A DNA stretch of 64,000 bases from Collybia mongolica (taxonomy: Eukaryota > Basidiomycota > Agaricomycetes > Agaricales > Clitocybaceae): NCBI GenBank assembly GCA_013420905.1, contig JAAXNY010000007.1, positions 293,284 to 357,283 of the forward strand, in the 5' to 3' direction. A program made the position numbers and the translations under genes. This document shows, piece after piece, positions 49,492 to 64,000 of this stretch. The notes below the pieces were generated by a model, which was given only the letters and a program-made list of their open reading frames with translations, did no database searches and was not told the origin of the DNA. The first letter of the stretch is position 1, and every line of letters begins with the position of its first letter.

Positions 49492-50715
49492 TGATAGGGC
49501 CCGAAATTGTTTGCACTTGTAAAGTCGACAAGTAAGGCTATTAGTATCATTTCTAATAACCAAGTAAACGGTAATAAAGGATTAGAGTCGAGCTCCAAGA
49601 CGGCTAATCAGAGTGAACTAGTCTAATGGATAATACACTATCAGTACAGAGGACTATGAGTACGGTCTATTATTAGTCCTATTCACCATGCCCGGTTACA
49701 ACCTCGGTGTCTTAGTTCATAAGTAACCGTTGTAGTATGATATCATTAGTCCGGGGATCATCATTAATAGGAGAAGTAATTGTAAATTCGGGACTTGCAC
49801 AACCCGATCCTAGTCAGGGGTACTTGGTGTTAACTACCGGAAGTGACGGGACACCGTGAATAACAACAGGGACAATCAGGGGGAGTAAACGACAGTGCCG
49901 CGCTGTTTTAAATAACAAAGCGCGCGGTCGGGACTTGATAAGAGTTTAGCCCGCTCTTTCAATATTTGATAAGTAACCAGTAAACGGCATAATTGGCATG
50001 CATGGCGCACGCGCCAAGTAGTAGAGGACGCATCAGCATTGAATACAGATCCTTGGCGCGCGGGAGCGCGGTTCCGTGTAAAATTTACAATTCCGTATGA
50101 TATTTAGTTTGTACACTATAAATAGACTGTAGATAAGTAGCGCTAAGAAAAAGGAATCTTGCCCCCACTTTGCGCGACTATAGAGTATACAAATCACATT
50201 TGTTAAAACACTATTGCGTGCCCGAATTAAGGATCAGATTGCTTCAACGTGTCTTGATTGGAATTGATTGGAGAACCACAGAATTAAAGAAACTTAGTTC
50301 ACTTGGAACTTAGTACCGTATTGTCCGTTGGAATTACTAGGCACTTGGCCTAAGTGCACTTGCCACTGTATTGTTTGATAAGTCGCTTGGACTTATAGAT
50401 CCGCTTGGGATCACTAATAATTGAACGTACACTTGGTACTCAGTCTATTGGATCGAGAGATTTTATAAATATACCTAGCAGGTTTTTGAACCTGTGTTGA
50501 AGCTTTTGTCTAAATCGAACCTGTTGAGAGATCATTGGAAAGGGCTTTGGCTAGTACTATTCAAAGCTTAGTGCTTCTAAGCACTTGAATCCGAACTCAA
50601 AACAGGCGATTCCTACTGTTCGTGTGTTGATTGTTAGGTTTGGTGTGTGTGTGTGTGAAGGATTACAGTACATTACATAGCATCAGCGCACTTATAGCCC
50701 AGGAGCCCCCTTTCA
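49492..50715 (+). mobile_element. Solo LTR 1 (1224 bp)
   Basis: Starts TGATAGGGCCCGAAATTG and ends CCCCCTTTCA, homologous to 50975-52190 and, in reverse, to 54460-55675. It is flanked by ATGG (49488-49491) and ACGG (50716-50719), best read as a 4-bp duplication ACGG whose left copy lost its CpG by C-to-T change. Contains CTATAAATAG near 50118 as probable promoter and a GT microsatellite near 50644. No internal element sequence flanks it, so it is a solo LTR. Confidence 0.88.
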
Positions 50716-50974
50716 ACGGGAACGAGGCCAGTGGGGATGAGGAAGACAGGGACAAGGCCAGCGGGGATGAGGAAGATGGGGACAAGGAAGATGGGGATGA
50801 GGAAGATGGGGACGAGGAAGATGGGGATGAGGAAGATGGGGATGAGGAGGATGCCAAGGAAGACCAGGACGACAACAAGAACACCCAGGGTGGCAACAAC
50901 GGCGCTCATGCCCCCTCCACCTCCTGTGCCCCCCCTGGCCTCTCCACCACGGCCTCTTGTGCCTCCTCCCGCGC

Positions 50975-52190
50975 TGATAGGGCCCGAAATTGTTTGCACT
51001 TATAAAGTCAACAAGTAAGGCTATTAGTATCATTTCTAATAACCAAGTAAACAGTAATAAAGGGTTAGAGTCGAGCTCCAAGACGGCTAATCAGAGTGAA
51101 CTAGTCTAATGGATAGTACACTGTCAGTACAGAGGACTATGAGTATGGTCTATTATTAGTCCTATTCACCATGCCCGGTTACAACCTCGGTATCTTAATT
51201 CATAAGTAACTGTTGTAGTATGATATCATTAGTCCGGGGATCATCATTAATAGGAGAAGTAATTGTAAATTCAGGACTTGCACAACCCGATCCTAGTCAG
51301 GGGCACTTGGTGTTAACTACTGGAAGAGATGGGACACCATGAATAACAACCGGGACAATCAGGAGAAGTAAATGACAGTGCCGCACTGTTTTAAATAACA
51401 AAGCGCACAGTTGGGACTTGACAAGAGTTTAGCCAGCTCTTTCAATATTTGATAAGTAACCAGTAACAACATAATTGGCACGTATGGCATGCACACCAAG
51501 TCATAGAGGATGTGTCAGCATTAAATACAGATCTTTGGTGTGGGGGAGTGCGGTTCTGTATAAAATTTACAATTTCGTATGATATTTAGTTTGTACACTA
51601 TAAATAGACTGTAGATGAGTAGCGCAAAGGTAAGGAATCTTGCCCCCACTTTGCGCTACTATAGAGTATACAAATCACATTTGTTAAAACACTATTGCGT
51701 GCCTGAATTAAGGCTCAGATTGCTTCAAAGTTGTCTTGATTGGAATTGTTTGAAGAGATCACAGAATTGAAGAGTCTTAGTTCACTTGGAACTTAGTACC
51801 GCATTGTCTGTTGGAATTACTAGGCACTTGGCCTTAGTGCACTTGGCATTGTTTGTTTAATAAGTCGCTTGGACTTATAGATCCGCTTGGGATCATTAAT
51901 AATTGAACATACACTTGGTACTCAGTCTATTGGATCGAGAGATATTATAAATATACCTAGCAAGCTTTAAACTTGTGTTGAAGCTTTGTCTGAATCAAAC
52001 CTGTCGAGAGATCATTGGAAAGGGCCTTGACTAGTATTATTCAAAGCTTAGTGCTTCTAAGCACTTGAACCCGAACTTAAAACAGGCAATTCCTACTGTT
52101 TGTGTGTTGATTGTTAGGTTTGGTGTGTGTGTGTGTAAGAGATTACATTTCATAGCATCAGCACACTTATAGCCCAGGAACCCCCTTTCA
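50975..52190 (+). mobile_element. Solo LTR 2 (1216 bp), CpG-decayed
   Basis: Same ends as LTR 1. Flanked by a perfect 4-bp duplication GCGC (50971-50974 and 52191-52194). Compared with LTR 1 and LTR 3 most CpG sites have become TpG or CpA, for example GCGCGCGGTCGGGAC versus GCGCACAGTTGGGAC, marking it as the older, methylation-decayed copy. The TATA box (CTATAAATAG) near 51598 is retained. Confidence 0.88.
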
Positions 52191-54459
52191 GCGCCCCCTC
52201 CACCTCTTGTGCCCCCTCCACCTCCTGCGCCGCCTCTGCCCATGGCCCTCCCTCCCATGGTGTCTCTCACGTTTTGTCGGCTGCCCCATCCTGCGCTGTC
52301 TCCCGTGTGCTGTTGCCTGCTGGTACTAACAGTAAGATTTTATTTTATAACACCTGTTAAACTTATTCTGATTTTACAAATCATACATTTAGTTTCTATT
52401 TCTTTAGATCAATCTTTTGTGGCTTTGCCCCCATATTCTGGTCTTGGGGAGGCTCTACCCCCATCTTCTGGTCTCGGGGAGGCTGTGCCCCCAGTTTCTG
52501 TGTCTGGGGATGTTCTACCCCCATCATCTGAGAATGTAGAACCACGTACCCCACCTAAGCATAGTGAGGTGGTGTTGAGCCCCAGGATATTGATATATCT
52601 CCTTGTGGTGCAGATTTGAGTTCATCTTACACTGTAGGTGGAGACTTGAATTCTCTGCAGGGTGCATCTCGCACTGTGGGTGGTTTCATTCGTGGTCAGG
52701 CATTGGGGAATGCTATGAACCATGCTGATTTTGAATATAACCAACCTGTTGCACCACCCAATGTCAAGGGTGTTGTTCATGTGTATAAGTCTATGGAATC
52801 TGAGCGTAGTAATCCAAGGGCTATGAAGTCTTCTATGACCATCCAGATTCCAGTTAACAGTTCCCTTGGTCCTGTTCTTTACAAATTGGGCAATCTATAC
52901 TTGCCTATTAAGAATGACAATCACCAGATTTATGTATACACAAATCAAGAAACTTGGGACATTAAGGGTCACTACAGTGCTGCAATTTCAGATAATGATA
53001 TGGTGGATTGGAAGTATGATGATCATGGATATGTTTTGCATTTATTTGTAAGTTTTACTACTTTTATTTATTGAAGTATATCTCTGATAAAAATACTTTT
53101 AGACTGAATCATCTGAATCCTCAACTTTCACACAAGTTCCAACTTCTTCTGTTCCAACTGTTTCTGTGCCTTCTAAAACTGAACCGTCTACATCAAACAA
53201 CACATCTGAGTCTGACATAGTTGCTTGCTTCACATCTGTTCAGCAATCTATGATTATGCAGTTGGAGATTGAACACTTCTATCTGGATCGTGGCAACCAT
53301 ACTTTGCATTATGCATATGCAAAATACAAAGAATTCTGTCATGCTAATACAGTGATGAAGAAAATGAAGGATGCTCTCACCTGGAAAGGTGCTGCCAAAC
53401 TGGCTGATTTGAAAGGAATCTTTGCTTCAACCTCTTATTTCTATTCAAATTATGAACCATTCAAGTTTGTTGAGAAATATCCAGCTCTGATAGGCTGGTT
53501 GGAAATTACTGAAGACTGTCTTTCTGATGAAGAAACTTGGGGATTTTCTGCAGATGATTATAACCTTGGATCACTGCACAAGTTTTTGCGTGGGCAGGGG
53601 GAGGATTTGAAAAAGTCCAAGGATGATGAAAAGGTTGAAGAAGTGCAGAAACAGTTTAGCAAAAGAAGGGCAAGTCTAAGGCTGTGGAACCAAGTTCTGG
53701 AGGGTGTGATGCAGAGAACAAGCCTAAAGTGGGGAAGAAGGGTCAAAGTTCAAAAGCTGTGAAACCAAAGAAGTAGTAAGTTGATACAATTTGATAAACT
53801 TTTGTTTGTATTTTTGTTTAACTTTTAGTAGTATATTACAGGCCTTGTATGCATTCTGTTCTTCATGGCTAGCTGTGGCATTCTTTTGGCTCTGGACTGA
53901 GATTTATGCTTGCATTTTGATTTTGGATCAATTCAAATCTCTTTGGATCATTTATAATCCTGAACAAAGGTTTCCTGATATTTCATTTCAGGAATTCAGT
54001 ATCTTTGTATCAGGGAATTTCAATTCTGAAATTCCACTGAGTACTGTACTCATGGCTTTGCTCACACTGACCAACAACACAGATTTGCTTAGTCTTCATG
54101 CTAAAGATATGACATCTGGTTGTTTATCTTTCACTGGTTGGATGACTTCTCTTGCCTTTATCATGATACAATTGCTAGGCAATGATGCATTATTGTTTTT
54201 TCCTGAAACAAGCATGTTTAAAGAAAAAAATGAACAAAGCAGAATTAATGCCTTGAGCAAACAACTTGATGGATTTGCTCAAATGTTACACTTGTATCCT
54301 GTGCGGAAAAATAATGAATTCAAAGGCAAACTCAAATCTGTTTCTCATACTGCTATTGAACCAATATATATATTGGCTCCAAATACACCTGTGTGCTTGA
54401 CAATATCTTGCAATTTTCATGTACTCAAACGTGAAACTCGGAACATTGATATTCCTCGT

Positions 54460-55675
54460 TGAAAGGGGGCTCCTGGGCTATAAGTGCGCTGATGCTATGA
54501 AATGTAATCTCTCTCACACACACACCAAACCTAACAATCAACACACGAACAGTAGGAATCGCCTGTTTTGAGTTCGGGTTCAAGTGCTTAGAAGCACTAA
54601 GCTTTGAATAGTACTAGCCAAAGCCCTTTCCAATGATCTCTCGACGGGTTCGATTTAGACAAAAGCTTCAACACAGGTTCAAAAACCTGCTAGGTATATT
54701 TATAATATCTCTCGATCCAATAGACTGAGTACCAAGTGTACGTTCAATTATTAGTGATCCCAAGCGGATCTATAAGTCCAAGCGACTTATCAAACAATAC
54801 AGTGCCAAGTGCACTAAGGCCAAGTGCCTAGTAATTCCAACGGACAATACGGTACTAAGTTCCAAGTGAACTAAGTTTCTTTAATTCTGTGGTTCTCCAA
54901 TCAATTCCAATCAAGACACGTTGAAGCAATCTGATCCTTAATTCGGGCACACAATAGTGTTTTAACAAATGTGATTTGTATACTCTATAGTCGCGCAAAG
55001 TGGGGGCAAGATTCCTTGCCTTAGCGCTACTCATCTACAGTCTATTTATAATGTACAAACTAAATATCATACGGAATTGTAAATTTTACACGGAACCGCG
55101 CTCCCGCGCGCCAAGGATCTGTATTCAATACCGACGCGTCTACTACAGCTTGGCGCGCGCGCCACGCGTGCCAATTATGTCGTTTACTGGTTACTTATCA
55201 AATATTGAAAGAGCGGGCTAAACTCTTATCAAGTCCCGACCGCGCGCTTTGTTATTTAAAACAGCGCGGCACTGTCGTTTACTCCCCCTGATTGTCCCTG
55301 TTGTTATTCACGGTGTCCCGTCGCTTCCGGTAGTTAACACCAAGTACCCCTGACTAGGATCGGGTTGTGCAAGTCCCGAATTTACAATTACTTCTCCTAT
55401 TAATGATGATCCCCGGACTAATGATATCATACTACAACGGTTACTTATGAACTAAGACACCGAGGTTGTAACCGGGCATGGTGAATAGGACTAATAATAG
55501 ACCGTACTCATAGTCCTCTGTACTGATAGTGTATTATCCATTAGACTAGTTCACTCTGATTAGCCGTCTTGGAGCTCGACTCTAATCCTTTATCACCGCT
55601 TACTTGGTTATTAGAAATGACACTAATAGCCTTACTTGTCGACTTTATAAGTGCAAACAATTTCGGGCCCTATCA
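54460..55675 (-). repeat. 3' LTR of the Gypsy element (1216 bp)
   Basis: On the minus strand begins TGATAGGGCCCGAAATTG (55675 leftward) and ends CCCCCTTTCA (54460). Retains CpG sites and is close to LTR 1. It has a TATAAATAG promoter sequence (minus strand, near 55040). Its first bases on the plus strand, TTGA, give the TGA stop to the interrupted gene to the left. Confidence 0.92.
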
Positions 55676-55684
55676 TCTCCCCCA
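55676..55684 (-). promoter_or_regulatory. Polypurine tract of the Gypsy element
   Basis: Minus strand TGGGGGAGA directly adjoins the TG of the LTR. A purine run immediately before the 3' LTR is the primer site for plus-strand DNA synthesis in LTR elements; its position and strand show that this LTR is the 3' LTR of a minus-strand element. Confidence 0.8.
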
Positions 55685-56127
55685 TACCACAAATGTAGAC
55701 TGTCCTCAGTCTCTCTTTGCCGGCATGTTGGTCCAATACTTCGGGTCTGCACGCGTCTGATCTTTCAGTACAATGTTACAACGGTTCCGCTTTTAGACAG
55801 GTAGGCGCGCGATGTTGGGATCGAGCCCAGAGGTTTTACTTCCCATCAGGATCGTGACAGCTATATACGTCTCCTGAGAGAGTACTTGACATTCGGACAT
55901 CGCTTTACAGATATTTCAGTCATCTGGACATTTTTCTCGTTATGTTTCTGACACTTCAGCAAGAGATCGGTACTCCTGTTTGTCTTTCAGAGCTTCGCAA
56001 TGCAGGGTTGTGCGTTTTAAAAAGCTCGCGTCCTTGCTAAGTTTTAGACAATTTGGACTTTATAGCCCATTTCTAAATCTCTTTGCTATCTGCATTGCTC
56101 AAACGCTCCAACTCTTTTCAAACAGAA

Positions 56128-58074
56128 ATGTCTTCCACTTCCACTTCCGCCATGGCTCGTGCTCTGCGCTCACCTTCCGCGCTGTCCCTCTCGCTTTCTG
56201 CCGCGATTCTGCCGACTGAGGGCCGTTCCCCCACCATGGTCTATGTGGACCAGCCGATCCCTTCCTTCTCGGACCTCCTCGAAGATGCCGAGGGCGACGT
56301 CTTCGTCGCTATGGAGCAAGGGTGGATTATCATGGCCGAGGAGCTCGCGCCCCGTATGGACCACCAAGGTCCCCTTGACCTTGATGACTTGATCGACTTT
56401 GTCGATCACTGCTCCATGCTCATCGTACGCCCATCTTTTACTTGTTAACTCCTTTTACTTATTTACTGGTCTCAGGATGCCATCACTGGCGTGGTCCGTG
56501 GCGCGCGTTTCTCGCTGCCATATCCGGCTATCCTCCTCCTGCGCGCGCTTCACCTTCAAGTGATGCGCCTCCCAGTTGACGCGCGCGAGGCTTCGTGGTC
56601 ATCCTGGTGTACGGTCATATCGACTGACCTGGGCGCCAACTCCATTCTTCTGGTAAATAAATTGTTTACTTCTTTACTCTGCCTCCCCTTGTCAAGCTGA
56701 CTACCTTGTTCTTTTAGGGCCAGGCTCCCACTGTGGAGCAAGTCCTTGACCAGGTGGGGTCGCGCTTCGAGCGCGACAATGGTGACAGTATCTTTCGAGA
56801 TACTTTCCTCGTCCCGCCTCGCATGGTTGGCGCGCCGCGCCGTTACCATCAGTACCGGGACAATTGGTCCGCCGCGCCCTTGCCGGCGCGCTCCCCGGTC
56901 TTGGTACCTGCGGTTCGTTTATCACTGCTTTTTATTACTTTCCTTCAGTGGTTGACTTATTTTAATAGCCCCTCAAGCGGAAGCGTAATGCTGGGTCCAA
57001 GGGAAAAGGCCGTGCGGTTCCCCAGGTATATCCTTTACTTTACGAGTTTCACATTATTGCTGACTTGATTTCAAAAATTCTAGTCCGACATGTCGCGCGC
57101 CCAGGGGACTGGCAGTGCTTCTGCGCTGCGTCCCTCGGAAGCAGGCCCGGTATGTCTCTTTCTGAAGTCATTTACGTTTACTCATCTTTATCTCCTTAGT
57201 CCTCTGGGCAGCCCCCGGTGAAGGTTGAAGTCCCTGAGCTTCGGCTCTTCGATGATGAGATCGCACGCCAGTTGGCTCAAGAGGGGTTCGCGGAGTTGTT
57301 GCCTCCCGCGGCCCCTTCTCCTTGTCGGTCGCGTAAGACCACCCGTTCTAGGGATAGGGCTCAGGCGACACGCCGCAAGCACGCGCTGGTTCCCAACCGG
57401 GAGCTGACGCCGCTACAGTCCCCTATTACCTCCCTGCTGGCTGACCTTGCGCCGCGGCGCTCTTCCGTATGTTTATTACTACTTTATTTCTTGTTACTGA
57501 TCATTTTTTACTAGGTGGGCTATCCTTGCACGATGTGCGCCACCCGCAGCGACATTGAGTGCACCTTCAACGGTTGGGGTAAACCGTGCATTGAATGCGC
57601 CACCGCCAAGAAGGGGAAGTGCAGCTTCAGCCTCACTCCCCAGAAGCGCGCTAGGCTTCGTGAGGATCTGGGGCCGATGCTTGGTGCGGGCATTTCTAGT
57701 AAGCCATTTTCTTTCTGTCTTTTTGTTTACTAATGATTTTACTTATTCTACTAGCGGTTGCTGAAGCCTATGCTCAGCTAGGCGACGCGGACTCTCTTGC
57801 CGCGGAGGTCATTCAGGCCGCTAACCGCGCGCTTGAAATGCGCAACTCCTTGTTGGCGCGCATAGTTGGCACCATCGGTAAGTTGTACGAGGAGGAAGGC
57901 CTGGAGGGCCTTCAAAACCTCTTGCTGACTACGCCAGCCACGGAGAGCGCTCTCCTCTTCTACGCGGATTTCCAGAACCTCCCTTGGCCGCCCTTGGAGG
58001 AAGAAGCAGAGGTTGATGACGGTTCTTCGTCGTCAAGTTCCTCTTCGTCCGTGCCTGACAGCGAGGAGGAGTAG
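56128..58074 (+). CDS. Antisense gene 1 of the Gypsy element: nuclear-type protein with Zn2Cys6-like cluster
   Basis: Unknown function. Eight exons (56128-56424, 56476-56652, 56718-56912, 56969-57025, 57084-57149, 57200-57466, 57515-57698, 57755-58074), all in phase, encode 520 residues. The start MSSTSTSAMARALRSPSALS follows a TTTAAAAAG sequence about 110 bp upstream. Residues about 30-160 look globular (VYVDQPIPSFSDLLEDAEGD). Exon 4 has an NLS-like PLKRKR. Exon 7 carries Cys-x2-Cys-x7-Cys-x8-Cys-x2-Cys-x7-Cys (CTMC ... C ... CIEC ... KGKC), close to the fungal Zn2Cys6 binuclear cluster. The end is acidic with a Ser run ([16 protein letters not shown]). It lies between pol and the 3' LTR, antisense to pol, where introns escape removal from the genomic RNA. 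Could regulate the element or be captured cargo. Confidence 0.75.
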
Positions 58075-58764
58075 CCGCGCCGCGCCCCCCCCCCTATATT
58101 TTTTTTTATCTACTTGTGTTTTCCCGGGCCCCTGTGCCCTTACATATTACTTATTCCCCCGCCTTTCGTTGGGCTTCAATTTTATTAATTGAAGTCCAAC
58201 ACATGTTTCTACATACAGTCCCCTGGACTATAAACAATACAATTGGTTTACCTGTTGTTCTATTGTCTTCATAAGAAAGCTTCTGCCCTTGCACCGGCTA
58301 CTTAAGTTATAAATAGTACAGTTTAATTCTGGTGCAATTCTCTCGATCATTAAGACCGTGGTGCGATCACTGACTTTTTATAGACAATCTATTTCAATCC
58401 TTGTAACCTTGGTAGGTTTTTCCAAATCGATTTTGCTTATACCCATCTCCCCCTCAACACTGACAACAACTGTCCCAGTTGTCATGCGGACACTGCCGCG
58501 CTCCACATGAATTTTTACGGAGCTCCTTTTTCAATTGGGCCCAGCATTTCAATTAGGCACGCGTCTCGGACCTGTTCAGTTGAAATGTATAGATTTTTCT
58601 GGGGATAGAACGCGCGCAACGAATGAGAGACTGGGTAGCGCTTCTCTAGTCGTAGAGGTATAAAAAGGGCACTGGCTGTGCTTTTTGTCCCAAGACATCG
58701 CCCGACTCTATTATACTCTCTTTACAACATTCTGGTTCGAAGAATCAATTTCCTCTGCATTATT
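58075..58764. promoter_or_regulatory. Spacer between the two antisense genes, with TATA box
   Basis: Holds the 3' flank of antisense gene 1 (C9 and T9 runs just after the stop) and the promoter of gene 2, with TATAAAAAGG at 58659-58668, about 100 bp before the ATG at 58765. Confidence 0.6.
58659..58668 (+). promoter_or_regulatory. TATA box of antisense gene 2 (TATAAAAAGG)
   Basis: Good TATA consensus about 97-106 bp upstream of the ATG; a weaker TTTAAAAAG at about 56017 has the same spacing to antisense gene 1. Confidence 0.6.
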
Positions 58765-60143
58765 ATGACTAGCCCCCCCAACTATCAAGACATTGAGAAC
58801 TTCAAGATGGTCCAAGCTCAGTGGCACACCTTTCAAGCTCGATTATCGATGGACACCCTTGTTGAACAAAGGGTCAGCGTCCGGAAGTTAGGCGAAACCG
58901 CGGTACACTTTTTACCAATTACACTTTTTAAAACGCCGTTTTTGTAACCAGGTTTTACAATTTACAGCTACTCCTGACTGAGTCCAAATTGGTTTTGACG
59001 GAGCGGTCCTGGCAGAATGTTATTTTTGGCGTCCGTAAGGCATTCCAGGGACTACAACATGTATACCCCGAGTTACTTCAAGAGCCTGTTTACCGTAATA
59101 TTGTGACTCTGACTGCCGCTATTCACCGTCACCGTGAAAAGGTCCGCACTGAGCACCTGTCTCAAACCGCGGTGCGTGCTTTTTACCCCATCTTGTACTG
59201 TACTGTTCTTTTTAAACCATGGTTTTCTGGTACTAGGTCCCTGCTACTGGTGGTGAAGCGGATGGTACCACTATTCCAGGCGAGGTCATTGCTGGCGGTG
59301 AATATGACGGTGACATTGAAATGTCTGGTACTGACTCGGTATGTTTCTTTTTAGCTACCGCGCTGTCAGTGCGCGACATACTCAATGGCGTCTCTTCTTT
59401 ACTCAAGAATATGGTCATTGATGCTACGGCTAGTGCTGCTGTCTCTGGATCAGTGACTAGTCGTCTCCTTAGTGAAGGACCAATCACCCGTAGCCGCAAG
59501 GAGAAGGAGAACATTAAGGTTCCCCGTGTCAAAAGGACTAAGGCTGAAAAGGCTGCCATCAAGGTACCCATTCTTGTTTTTGCTCTGTCTATTACTTTGT
59601 TTCTTATTCCTACAGGACGGTAAGCGTTCCGAGCTCAATCGCGGCAGCACTCTTCGTCCCAAAAAGCGTACAAGGCAGGACACCCCGGATGAAGATCCAA
59701 AGGCATCTGCTGAGGGTACGTTTTCTAATAATAGATGGTTCTAAATTTATACCGACTGTGCATCAGATACTCGTGTCTTTATTGACTTCCGTCCCTCCAA
59801 GGAGCACGATGTAGTCTTAGCGCGGGCGCGCTTGATTGCAGACGCGGGCGATCCCATGTTGCACACCAAGCAAGCCCTCGGTAGGATGCTTTTAAACTAC
59901 CGCGCTGAGTTGGAGGAGATCAGTCATACAGTGTCCTTCTTATTGAAGCGTCGTGATGCCACTATGGACGAGGTTACTCGCCTCAACGGTCTAATGAACG
60001 AGGCCGCTCTGGAGGGAGGCTCTGACGAGGCTGCCACTGCGAGCGCTACGGAAGTCCATGACCAGGATGACAATGATAAGGAGGAGGTAGCTCCGGCTGA
60101 CTTGCCCTTGCCCGAGGTTGAAGACGACTTCATATCTGCTTGA
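58765..60143 (+). CDS. Antisense gene 2 of the Gypsy element: helical, basic protein of unknown function
   Basis: Five exons (58765-58902, 58968-59171, 59237-59563, 59616-59715, 59767-60143), all in phase, encode 381 residues. It starts MTSPPNYQDIENFKMVQAQW and has a helical N-terminal part (LTERSWQNVIFGVRKAFQGL). The middle region is basic (RSRKEKENIKVPRVKRTKAE, and RPKKRTRQD near exon 4), possibly nuclear-targeting. The C-terminal helix-rich part (DPMLHTKQALGRMLLNYRAE) ends in an acidic tail (EVEDDFISA). No catalytic motif is seen. It ends 147 bp from the pol stop, convergent with it. Intact frames and splice sites argue that it is functional or recently so; the role is unknown. Confidence 0.72.
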
Positions 60144-60289
60144 GGACAGTCCAATTAACTTCCTCCTGAGTTATGGTGTCCCTCCCCACGCTCCTTTGTA
60201 TTACTGTCTTTACTCGGCTTAACACTGTCCTTACTACTTCGCTTAGTTGCTTATACTTTCTTTACTGCTTCTGTTTCCATACTGATTTA

Positions 60290-63200
60290 TCACCTATGCA
60301 ACTTCCGGTGTGACATAGTAGTTTGTGGTAGCGCCGGCGCTATCCCCTCCTCAGTGTTCTCACTAGAGCTTGACTCTGAATCGGACTGATCCAATTGGAC
60401 TCTGTCAAACGTATAGTCACGCTCCTTGTAAACTTGCCTATTAGCGGGATCTTTCGATTCCACTAAAGCATTTAGTGTTTCGCTAGAGATGTCTATTAGA
60501 TCTTGCAGATTATCCGGCAGTTCAATTGTACTCCTAGCAAAATAGGGAATAACCCTAAACGCCCCCACTTTATGTTGCCACACCGATCCATCCATTTCGC
60601 AAACAATATAGGCTCCCCCGCGGTTTCGTCTAAGGACTATCATTGGTCCCAGGTACCGTGGCTTCAGCTTTTTATCGAGCGAACTTTCGACCTCGGTATT
60701 TCTAACTAGTACTAAACTTCCTGGTTTGAAATCATAGTCTCTGATGGTCGCGCTGTGATCCTTCTCATACTGTAATAGTCTCCTTTGTTTTTCTATATTG
60801 ATACGTTTCCTCATATCGGCCACATGCTGGACGTGCTTAGCTAGAGCCTGCGCTCTAAATCCAATGAGTTCCTCTGTAGTCAATATTTTTCCTGGTAACT
60901 TTACTAACCAAGTGGCTTCGATAATATCTAACGGTAAGGTTGGGTGCGCGCCCGTAATCATAAAATAGGGGGAGCAACCCGTCCCTTTCCGTATAGTAAT
61001 TCTGTCAGCCCACATTACATGGTGGAAGAAGTAGTACCACTTCTTTACATCACCACCTGTAGCTTTGAAGACAGCTTGACGCACATCCCAATGTGCGCGC
61101 TCGGCGATCCCATTTCCTTTGGAATTGTATGGTGATATACTTATTCCTGTAATACCATACTTGGATTCCAGCCACGCTTTGGCCGCGACAAAGGCAGGAC
61201 CATTATCCGTTACAATTTCCGTTAGGGAACCCCATCTACAAATTACTTCTTCGAACAGCCACCTTCCCAAGGTCTTGCCATCCTCAGATTTGAGGGGCGC
61301 GCCTTCCATCCACGAAGACAGCGCACATCTTCCTTGGACAATGTATTTATAACCGTTAGACGATGGGCTCATATACATGGTGTCCGCATGCAATACTTGG
61401 AATATAGACGGCGTGTGGGTTATGACAGGAGGGATTCTCAACAAAGTTAAGAGCCTTGTCTGACAGATGTGACATGACTTCACATACCATGATACATCGC
61501 GTTCCATTTCTGGCCACCAAAATCTTTTATCTATTAAGGATTTTGTTGCATAGAAACCCCTATGTCCAACAGAATCGTGAGATGCCTTCATCATATATGT
61601 TCGGTGATTTTTATCAACAACAAGCTGGTGCGCGCTATCGATATTTTTCCTATACATCCTGCCTTCTGGATCCAAAAAGAAATTAGACGCCTGCCTTGCA
61701 AACTTTAGGTAGGCGCGATCTGTCATTCCTTTTGGTCTCTTTTGTGGTCTTTTTAACCATTCTTTTATTAAAGGTAGGTTTTTATCCTGTTCCTGCGCCG
61801 TAGGTGTTCGTTTAGACTCATCATATACTTCCCTTACATTAGGGTCATATTTAAACTTTTCATCGGGTATGACAGTAGTATTTACAAGTTGCTTTAGATA
61901 AGCTTCTCTTTGAATACCGAACCGTCCTAAACCTAAGTGCTGTTTTACTTCTCCAATAAATGCTGCTTCACCAGCCCAGGCATTGTTTACTTCAACTTCA
62001 AAATCAGAGATTTCCTTCGCAAGTTGGAATAAATATCCGCTGCGCGTGTCGATCTCCTCTTTAAAATCTGACAGCTCCAAAGGGTCATCCAATCCTTCCG
62101 TTGGGTTGATAAACCTTAAAGGACCTGAGGGTTCGTCGTAACCATCGTCTGGGTCCGGGTAGACAGGATCCCCTAGCCGCGCGTCTCGTCTTGACAGACC
62201 ATCTGGGCCAAAGCCTTTACCAGCTTTATGAACCAGAGTAAAGTGGAACATAAGTATCCTATCAATCCACCTATTTACCGTTGCATTAGGTCCTAGACTT
62301 GGGTTTGATAACATCCCCTTAATGTACTTTGCATCCGTTTCCACTACCAAATTTCGTACTCCAATAAACCAATAATAACATGCCATTAGAACTCTCATCA
62401 ATCCGAATAGCTCTCGTTTGGGTTGTGAGAAGCGCGCTTCGCGCTCATTCAGAGTTATCGAGTCAAATCTAGCATAGTGCTTTCTTCCAGGTATATCAGG
62501 GTCTTCCTGATAGATATAGTAGCCTACGGCTTTCCATGACGTATCTACTGACAATACCACTGGCGTATTCCAGGTGTAATTAATTGGACGGAGCGCGGGG
62601 CTATTTTTAAGTGCGTCTAACAATAGCTGCTGCGCTTCTTCTTGCTCAGGCCCCCATATCCAAGGTTCACTACTTCTAGTTAACTTTTGAATTGGTTGGC
62701 CTATACGGGCGAAGTCTTTAATGAAATTCCTGCATACACCAATAGTTCCCATGTAAGCGCGTACTTCACTGACATCTTTGCATGGTCCCCATCTTTCAAC
62801 TACACCGATTCTATCTGTAGTAGGTTTTCGTCCTTCATAGGTACATCTATGTCCTACCACTAGAATTTCACTTGCGCATAACATAGACTTATATCCTGAA
62901 AACGTTCCTCCAGAATACTTCATTCTCTGTACGACGCGATTTACATTTTGCATATGTTCCCAGAAGAAGCGCCTAACACCTGGAGCACCAGGTAGCTCTT
63001 CTTCTGTTCCGTCCGGCAGTTCGTAGCGCGTTGCTGGACCGCGCACGGGTACATCATCAATGTAGGGTATTGTGACATGTGGTACCTCATCCTGTAGGAT
63101 GTATGTGACATCATCATGAAATATTGGAACTGAATTCGTCCATCCCATAGGAAGTGTTACTAGTCTCAGCGCGCCAAACGGTGTTTGGAACGTGGTTAGA

Positions 63201-63985
63201 TCGCGCGAGGTTTCTGCTAAAGGCCTCTCATCGTATCCTACATATAGATCCATCATTCCGCCACAAGCGCGCCCTGCGAAGTGTTCTGCTAGTTCTTCGG
63301 TAGCGGGTGGTAAGCCCGAGTGCGCTATTGTGACTGCATTCAGCGGTTCTAGACTATGTACAATTCTAAGCTTCTTTCCTGGGCCTTTCTTTAATACGGT
63401 AAACCATCTAGACCTATATGATGAATTGGATCTCTCATAGACTCCTGCATCAATTTTAGTTTTGATGATTTTACAAACATCTTCATAGATCCCTGGTGGG
63501 ATTCTAATGTTCCTTTCTGTCCACGGCGTATGTGGGACTACTGGTATCTCGACGGGAGGAAAATATTCCTTCTTAAAGCTACCGCGCTCACTATCATTCC
63601 AGGCAAAACCATCATTATGTTTGCACATAAAGTCGTGAATTATATCCATCTCTTTAGGTTTTAAGAAGCTCTCTTCTTCGTGTACCCTTTGGAATTCCGC
63701 GCGCCTTTCCTCAGTATACCTTCCAGTTGGTTTAAACGGAGGTGGGTTAGGCGTTAGAACGGGTAGGGCCGCTAAAGGGTCACCCTTTATATCTCTGATA
63801 ATTCTAAATTTATCAGGCAGGTCCGCCAGTGTTGGTTTTGTTTTCAAATGTACTGGTTTATACTTCTTTCCTACTAACTGATCCATGGGCTCAATATTAC
63901 ACTTTTCACTTGTTGCAGTTCCAAGACCGCGCTCGTTGGTGCCAATTTGCCACCGCTTTAATTTACTTAAAGCTTTATCGATCAT
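60290..63985 (-). CDS. pol: Ty3/Gypsy Pol polyprotein (RT, RNase H, integrase), 5' end open
   Basis: Copies element RNA into DNA and integrates it. The frame of 1231 codons from ATG 63985 is open upstream to the window edge (GCT CAA GAA CAG CCC), so gag/protease may be fused or lie beyond. RT is at about residues 160-380 with catalytic Asp246 ([10 protein letters not shown]) and YIDD at 308-311 (the family's YxDD box). RNase H at about 470-600 has Asp481 (LSVDTSW), Glu525 (KRELFG) and Asp551 (VETD). Integrase has the zinc HHCC (His803, His808, Cys838, Cys841) and the DDE triad Asp868 (HADTM), Asp927 (VTDNGPAF) and Glu962 (GIAERAH). A GPY/F-like segment ([19 protein letters not shown]) follows at about 1110-1128, then a Ser/Glu-rich tail without a chromodomain. 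No stop or frameshift is seen, so this copy may be active or recently inserted. Confidence 0.96.
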
Positions 63986-64000
63986 GGGCTGTTCTTGAGC

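Follow-up and report, generated by a model that had tools for sequence, protein, structure and literature searches.

Open reading frames (ORFs) that run antisense to gag-pol between pol and the 3' long terminal repeat (LTR) have been reviewed for several plant LTR retrotransposons, including Grande, RIRE2, Retand and PvRetro13, and one of them, gene23 of Grande, has its own promoter and a nuclear product (PMC7264820). That review never uses the word intron, and its passages on these ORFs describe no cysteine cluster, but it does call for a search for antisense and spliced transcripts (PMC7264820). Among fungal Ty3/Gypsy elements, Boty (BcGypsy1) of Botrytis cinerea and Sclerotinia likewise carries an antisense gene, brtn, between pol and the 3' LTR (PMC7264820, with a mention of the Botrytis gene in PMC8365987). 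Here we describe family A, a Ty3/Gypsy-type LTR retrotransposon of Collybia mongolica, the 3' part of which fills the last 9.5 kb, on the minus strand, of a 64,000 nucleotide (nt) stretch of DNA (the window; C7:293284-357283 in a 46-Mb, 26-contig genome). While Boty has one antisense gene, family A has two multi-intron genes with selection acting across copies, and a gene with a cysteine cluster recurs in several families. The position past pol is thus of a known kind; the novelty lies in the spliced pair, the evidence of selection, and introns that persist with a cysteine cluster across families. A sequence-only reading of the window had claimed two spliced plus-strand genes of 8 and 5 exons antisense to pol, and tests of reading frame, selection and insertions or deletions (indels) confirm both structures. 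The same reading knew of no fungal case with two spliced genes. This stands, as no description of a pair of spliced antisense genes in an LTR element was found in a literature search (top-ranked titles and abstract openings, with subscription journals mostly outside it), but a single antisense gene had already been described in Boty.

HBZ of human T-cell leukaemia virus type 1 (HTLV-1) is a basic leucine zipper (bZIP) protein that regulates viral transcription, and its transcript begins in the 3' LTR, unlike the family-A genes. It also comes from a spliced antisense transcript of a retroelement, in this case a retrovirus (PMC10974842). We claim no homology between HBZ and the family-A proteins.

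Gene 1 (plus strand, 56128-58074) has 8 exons (56128-56424, 56476-56652, 56718-56912, 56969-57025, 57084-57149, 57200-57466, 57515-57698 and 57755-58074) and encodes 520 aa. Gene 2 (plus strand, 58765-60143) has 5 exons (58765-58902, 58968-59171, 59237-59563, 59616-59715 and 59767-60143) and encodes 381 aa. The 11 introns are short and all GT-AG (7 of 48-65 nt in gene 1 and 4 of 51-65 nt in gene 2), and, as had been claimed, 13/13 exons join in phase. Each gene had also been credited with its own TATA-like element: this is true of gene 2, where TATAAAAAG (plus strand, 58659-58667) lies 106 nt before the ATG and is present in 17/18 aligned copies, but upstream of gene 1 there is just a weak TTTATAG. 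Exon 4 of gene 1 (56969-57025) contains a basic stretch resembling a nuclear localization signal, PLKRKRNAGSKGKGR, identified by eye. Exon 7 (57515-57698) encodes a six-cysteine cluster, CX2CX7CX8CX2CX7C, and a phase-0 intron lies 4 codons before its first cysteine. The introns of gene 1 (56425-57754) contain TTTACT 10 times in one orientation, against a null of 2.0; it was set aside as an element motif, as intron composition or branch sites may account for the excess.

The two genes lie at a fixed position in the element. With the end of pol as a protein query, 132 matches were obtained, from which 103 family-A matches reaching or nearly reaching the end were taken; 101 of these include it. 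Gene 2 is found in antisense within 700 bp of at least 75 of the 101 pol 3' ends (an aORF-3R layout, with the antisense ORF between pol and the 3' LTR), and in 71 of them the distance is identical, at 153 bp between matched ends. Of the 26 pol ends without gene 2 in this count, at least four have it by DNA search (C6:143092, C24:10563, C10:1538680 and C6:1602, the last a cut end). Conversely, among the matches listed, 75/82 places with the last exon of gene 2 adjoin a pol end. These counts bear on two other explanations. According to the first, the genes belong to another, nested element or are chance ORFs. Additional family LTRs at 49492-52189 indicate that insertions cluster nearby; the common spacing in 71 copies, five complete elements in which both LTRs lie outside the gene block, and the selection and indel patterns described below make this explanation extremely improbable. 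A second LTR pair around the genes, which would have pointed to nesting, was not seen among the 20 largest of the 36 direct-repeat families in the window. According to the second, one element picked up host genes (transduction), which then multiplied as neutral passengers. The multiple exons and short introns do resemble those of host genes, and the sole database relative found for gene 2 is a protein annotated in Collybia nuda (P0001, 63% identical over 100%), which also means that gene 2 is not confined to the present genome. Against capture stand the purifying selection across copies, the association of gene 2 with pol, the failure to find a separate host locus for gene 2 among the 82 places listed, and a comparable antisense gene past pol in two further families; we consider capture very unlikely. 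Both the nested-insertion and the host-gene readings were largely rejected on the pol-gene 2 position counts.

To assess selection, 18 copies of the gene block were aligned, and three old, degraded ones (L025, L026 and L029) were removed to leave 15 young copies including that in the window. The aligned copies were picked from good matches, so the following intact fractions are biased upward. Gene 1 is open in 14 of the 15 (the exception, L016, has a frameshift) and both open and canonical at all splice sites in 12; gene 2 is open in all 15, with canonical splice sites in 14. In the three removed copies gene 1 is broken each time, while gene 2 is open in one. The ratio of non-synonymous to synonymous divergence (dN/dS, or omega; Nei-Gojobori) had been predicted to be below 1 between copies, and its median is 0.20 in gene 1 and 0.25 in gene 2 (97/105 pairs with gene 1 dS >0.03), values that overstate constraint because gene 1 dS is above intron and intergenic divergence. 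The medians for gene 1 and gene 2 respectively are 0.146 and 0.071 for dS and 0.026 and 0.016 for dN, with 0.052 for introns and 0.048 for intergenic DNA; dN relative to intron divergence is about 0.5 for gene 1 and about 0.3 for gene 2. For pol, the divergence between the window and L011 is 0.034.

A null free of dS inflation came from 2000 simulations in which every change was relocated among sites with a matching triplet context. Shared non-synonymous variants number 61 in gene 1 (null 102.8±5.5) and 27 in gene 2 (null 42.1±3.5), and for each gene 0/2000 simulations were as low. The deficit of singleton non-synonymous variants is weaker (gene 1, 75 vs 87.5, p 0.017; gene 2, 36 vs 43.8, p 0.025). 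A stronger deficit among shared variants is expected if selection acts in the transposing lineages and copies decay afterwards. As for indels, exons contain 3 distinct indels in 2709 bp (1 out of frame), and introns and intergenic DNA contain 44 in 1307 bp (37 out of frame). Judged from the aligned copies, both proteins are kept functional by selection in transposing lineages. This bears on the view that antisense transcription itself, through double-stranded RNA or read-through control of gag-pol, is what matters and not the proteins. The layout would indeed yield complementary transcripts, and antisense RNA control has been discussed for other elements (PMC7264820), reportedly also in a paper on Blumeria, yet the constraint is seen at the level of codons and frame, and the six cysteines and the splice sites are conserved, so that we regard an RNA-only role as unlikely. 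The singletons in the 15 young copies are mainly CpG transitions (95/133 in gene 1 and 47/65 in gene 2); together with the CpG-decayed appearance, by eye, of old copies L028 and L029, they suggest methylation of the element.

Retrotransposition ordinarily strips introns. The introns of genes 1 and 2 are GT-AG on the plus strand and read CT-AC in the genomic RNA of the element, so that they are not removed and are copied at each transposition. The sequence-only reading had proposed that they could pass through unchanged, and this is what is observed: a copy at C1:4.28M with identical LTRs (0 differences in 1216) and a target-site duplication (TSD) of ACGC has both genes intact with all 11 introns, and intron loss was seen in 0/15 young copies. 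Antisense introns can therefore persist in retrotransposons. Eleven of them ride through retrotransposition here, and the antisense orientation amounts to an intron-preserving hiding place for complex genes.

A similar arrangement was found in more distant pol relatives in the same genome, family X (pol 45% identical; L038 and L041) and family Y (pol 37-47% by matched piece; L039 and L040). In family X, an antisense gene of 3 exons and 506 aa lies past the pol stop and is followed by a polypurine tract and an LTR start (both chosen by eye); in family Y, an antisense gene past pol has 3 exons and encodes 677 aa. The X gene lies 425-432 bp past the pol match on the opposite strand at 7/7 loci (one with an in-frame stop and one frameshifted), and the Y gene 288-594 bp past it on the opposite strand at 6/6 full-length loci. 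For one Y-like pol (C16:23088), the matches listed include no antisense gene. Two weak matches were also obtained: one, on C9 (L042) beside a 36% identical pol, is a decayed Y relative that keeps 5/6 cysteines (E-value: 4e-9), and the other is at C4:2252699. The X and Y proteins are homologous (E-value: 4e-9, 32% identity over 101 residues, plus a C-terminal piece). Their first introns coincide in the alignment, and in both genes the second intron lies 5 codons before the first cysteine (the second-intron donor sites were picked among several candidates); genes that are only 32% identical over their best-aligning 101 residues have thus retained introns at equivalent places. The cysteines of families A, X and Y all fit CX2CX7CX7-8CX2CX6-7C, and in all three a phase-0 intron precedes them by 4-5 codons. 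From this cysteine pattern, the place of the intron and the position past pol, gene 1 of family A is probably homologous to the X and Y genes. No counterpart of gene 2 was seen in X or Y.

The cysteine cluster had been described as Zn2Cys6-like, and its six cysteines are indeed present in 18/18 copies. Classical fungal Zn2Cys6 domains (PF00172) have the spacing CX2CX6C...CX2CX6-8C. The spacing in gene 1 differs from this and there is no profile match, so membership of the classical family was rejected. No relative of gene 1 was found at an E-value of 0.001 among 7999 scored candidates, nor of its residues 350-480 at an E-value of 0.1 among 379 candidates. Nine pattern matches in viral contigs were not confirmed. 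A sequence search of the PDB returned nothing for P0001 and two matches for exon 7, neither of them significant.

VANDALs belong to the Mutator-type DNA transposons. The anti-silencing VANC proteins of Arabidopsis VANDALs are likewise encoded by the element and by intron-bearing genes, and are accompanied by dense, family-specific short motifs in one orientation (PMC5735166). In family A, a short motif is over-represented. Compared with synonymous shuffles, GCGC is in excess in pol (37 vs 13.1), gag (16 vs 5.0), ORF2 (7 vs 2.0) and gene 1 (37 vs 23.5), and among the 256 4-mers it ranks first in both pol and gag, with third place in ORF2. It occurs at expectation in five control coding sequences (another Gypsy pol, a Copia-type gag, the X and Y antisense coding sequences and a long interspersed nuclear element (LINE) ORF), which do not support a general coding bias of the genome, although their number is small and they include no host gene. 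In the LTR, GCGCGC occurs 5 times (0.14 in dinucleotide shuffles). Family X has a different motif, TACTTCGC, found 9 times in non-coding DNA in one orientation (null about 0.08). For CpG within GCGC, shared variants occur at 12/49 vs 96/215 sites (p 0.01), a weak result, possibly biased by the majority-base definition of sites, that disappears when any variant is counted. The resemblance to VANC targets is a lead and not proof: for VANC, motif binding and loss of methylation have been demonstrated (PMC5735166), whereas family A is known from its sequence, and GCGC is palindromic and also fills coding DNA.

Taken together, the two genes probably belong to the element and serve its control rather than being chance passengers. 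On balance we think it probable that this Gypsy family encodes two trans-acting antisense proteins, of which gene 1 would be a nuclear regulator that binds DNA or chromatin and gene 2 its partner. The element would express both proteins opposite gag-pol, from the interval that separates pol from the 3' LTR, each through a spliced plus-strand mRNA of its own, and the genes with their introns are copied intact at each transposition because the introns are reversed in the genomic RNA. The basic stretch and the zinc-type six-cysteine cluster suggest that the gene 1 protein probably enters the nucleus, binds zinc, recognizes the DNA or chromatin of the element and promotes or protects its expression; gene 2 may act with it. 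Candidate binding sites would be the element-wide GCGC in family A and the different motif in X. The proteins might instead assist the particle in its structure or transport. RNA or protein can also be bound by cysteine clusters, and the model of P0001 is helix-rich, if at very low confidence; set against these, and only indirectly, separate antisense units with introns fit a separately timed nuclear product, and gene 1 has its basic stretch and the element its widespread DNA motif. We hold such a helper role to be rather unlikely, though not negligibly so.

Beyond the inflated dS mentioned above, several observations weigh against a pair of DNA-binding control proteins. First, domain and fold searches lend it no help: there is no Pfam match for the gene 1 protein or its exon 7, even at an E-value of 10, none for gene 2 and nothing of note for the gene 2 homologue, and the predicted fold of P0001 alone is uninformative (predicted local distance difference test score (pLDDT) 40) and was left unused. 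Second, outside the cluster gene 1 resembles neither the X nor the Y protein significantly (BLAST, best E-value: 1.1). Third, the motif is uneven. The GCGC excess in gene 2 is marginal (8 vs 4.4, p 0.038; GCGCGC, p 0.16), family Y has no GCGC excess and its top k-mers resemble simple or coding repeats, and GCGC is found in coding DNA as well, whereas VANC sites are mainly non-coding (PMC5735166). The pairing of the gene 1 protein with GCGC is put forward as a candidate. Fourth, the expectation that the genes always lie between pol and the 3' LTR holds for the spacing reported above but fails for two copies: one on C12 (L017) has lost 1413 bp from the start of gene 1, and in a sixth, partial copy (L020) gene 1 lacks its end and gene 2 is absent. 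As some recent copies miss part of a gene, the proteins are not required in cis by every copy.

A broader and more tentative proposal, which we find possible but would not expect to hold in full, is that fungal Gypsy elements have long carried an antisense, intron-stable and self-specific DNA-binding regulator or anti-silencing factor, and that their own DNA, coding regions included, is seeded with a matching motif (GCGC in A and TTACTTCGC in X). If true, this would be a retrotransposon counterpart of VANC, with introns preserved precisely because the gene runs backwards. The function of antisense ORFs in LTR elements becomes testable with such a many-copy and apparently recent family, in which the cysteine cluster is defined and there are candidates for the target motifs.

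The element in the window lies on the minus strand. Its 3' LTR (TG...CA, 1216 bp, 54460-55675) has near-identical counterparts elsewhere in the genome and is abutted by a polypurine tract (55676-55690; GGGGGAGA in the sense of the element), with an identical 25-nt sequence in 5/5 complete elements. TCGT at 54456-54459 is the outer half of a presumed 4-bp TSD, of the form NCGN; the partner half lies beyond the contig. The pol frame (minus strand, 60290-64000), recognized as an ORF and by domain profiles for RNase H and integrase, is open to the window end. Above cut-off it has, in order, RT_RNaseH_2, RT_RNaseH and Integrase_H2C2, and RVT_1 and rve were found below cut-off. Both the LTR pair with TSD and the order of reverse transcriptase, RNase H and integrase in pol identify a Ty3/Gypsy-type LTR retrotransposon. 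As the pol frame runs into the contig end (C7:357283, the right edge of the window), the 5' half of this copy is not visible and the full anatomy was taken from five other loci with both LTRs.

A full-length family-A element is about 14 kb, in the order 5' LTR, gag, protease-like ORF, pol, antisense gene 2, antisense gene 1, polypurine tract and 3' LTR. In 5/5 complete copies the LTRs are TG..CA, with 0, 13, 2, 1 and 5 differences between the members of a pair per approximately 1216 bp, and in 4/5 there are matching 4-bp TSDs (ACGC, CCGT, GCGG and TCGG). The fifth copy, C1:1694212-1708700 (L013 and L014), is flanked by ACGA and GCGC, has the LTR pair that differs at 13 sites and is perhaps a recombinant. 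All four TSDs, and TCGT/ACGA of the window, fit NCGN, which suggests insertion at CpG; family X ends, by eye, at ACGC, which has the same form. Both genes are carried by 4/5 complete copies, one of them being L016 with its gene 1 frameshift. Between the 5' LTR and pol, the two copies inspected for frames have a 619-codon gag frame, with a zinc knuckle just under cut-off, and a 409-codon frame with weak protease-like similarity, also under cut-off. A stretch beginning with TGG, a candidate transfer RNA primer site, occurs 2 nt inside the 5' LTR in 5/5 copies, and a single exact-pattern search matched it to no transfer RNA gene. Family A is repeated many times: there are at least 39 other near-full-length LTRs at 98-100% identity (from 40 of 522 candidates scored) and at least 34 full or near-full gene-block copies of at least 3720 of 4016 bp (from 38 of 152 candidates scored).

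A rearranged element was seen at L019:1348-3009, where a 5' LTR with its primer site adjoins sequence about 445 bp upstream of gene 1. Elements at L028, L038 and L039 have beside or inside them a LINE-type reverse transcriptase, a Copia-type gag and a further Gypsy polyprotein (identified by eye). In the window, two further family-A LTRs in the opposite orientation lie to the left of the element (49492-50714 and 50975-52189, 97% and 92% identical, respectively), and ORFs resembling a spliced gene are located at 52568-54462, between the second of these LTRs and the element. Short tandem repeats with units of 15 and 30 bp occur at 50718-50867 and 52421-52530.

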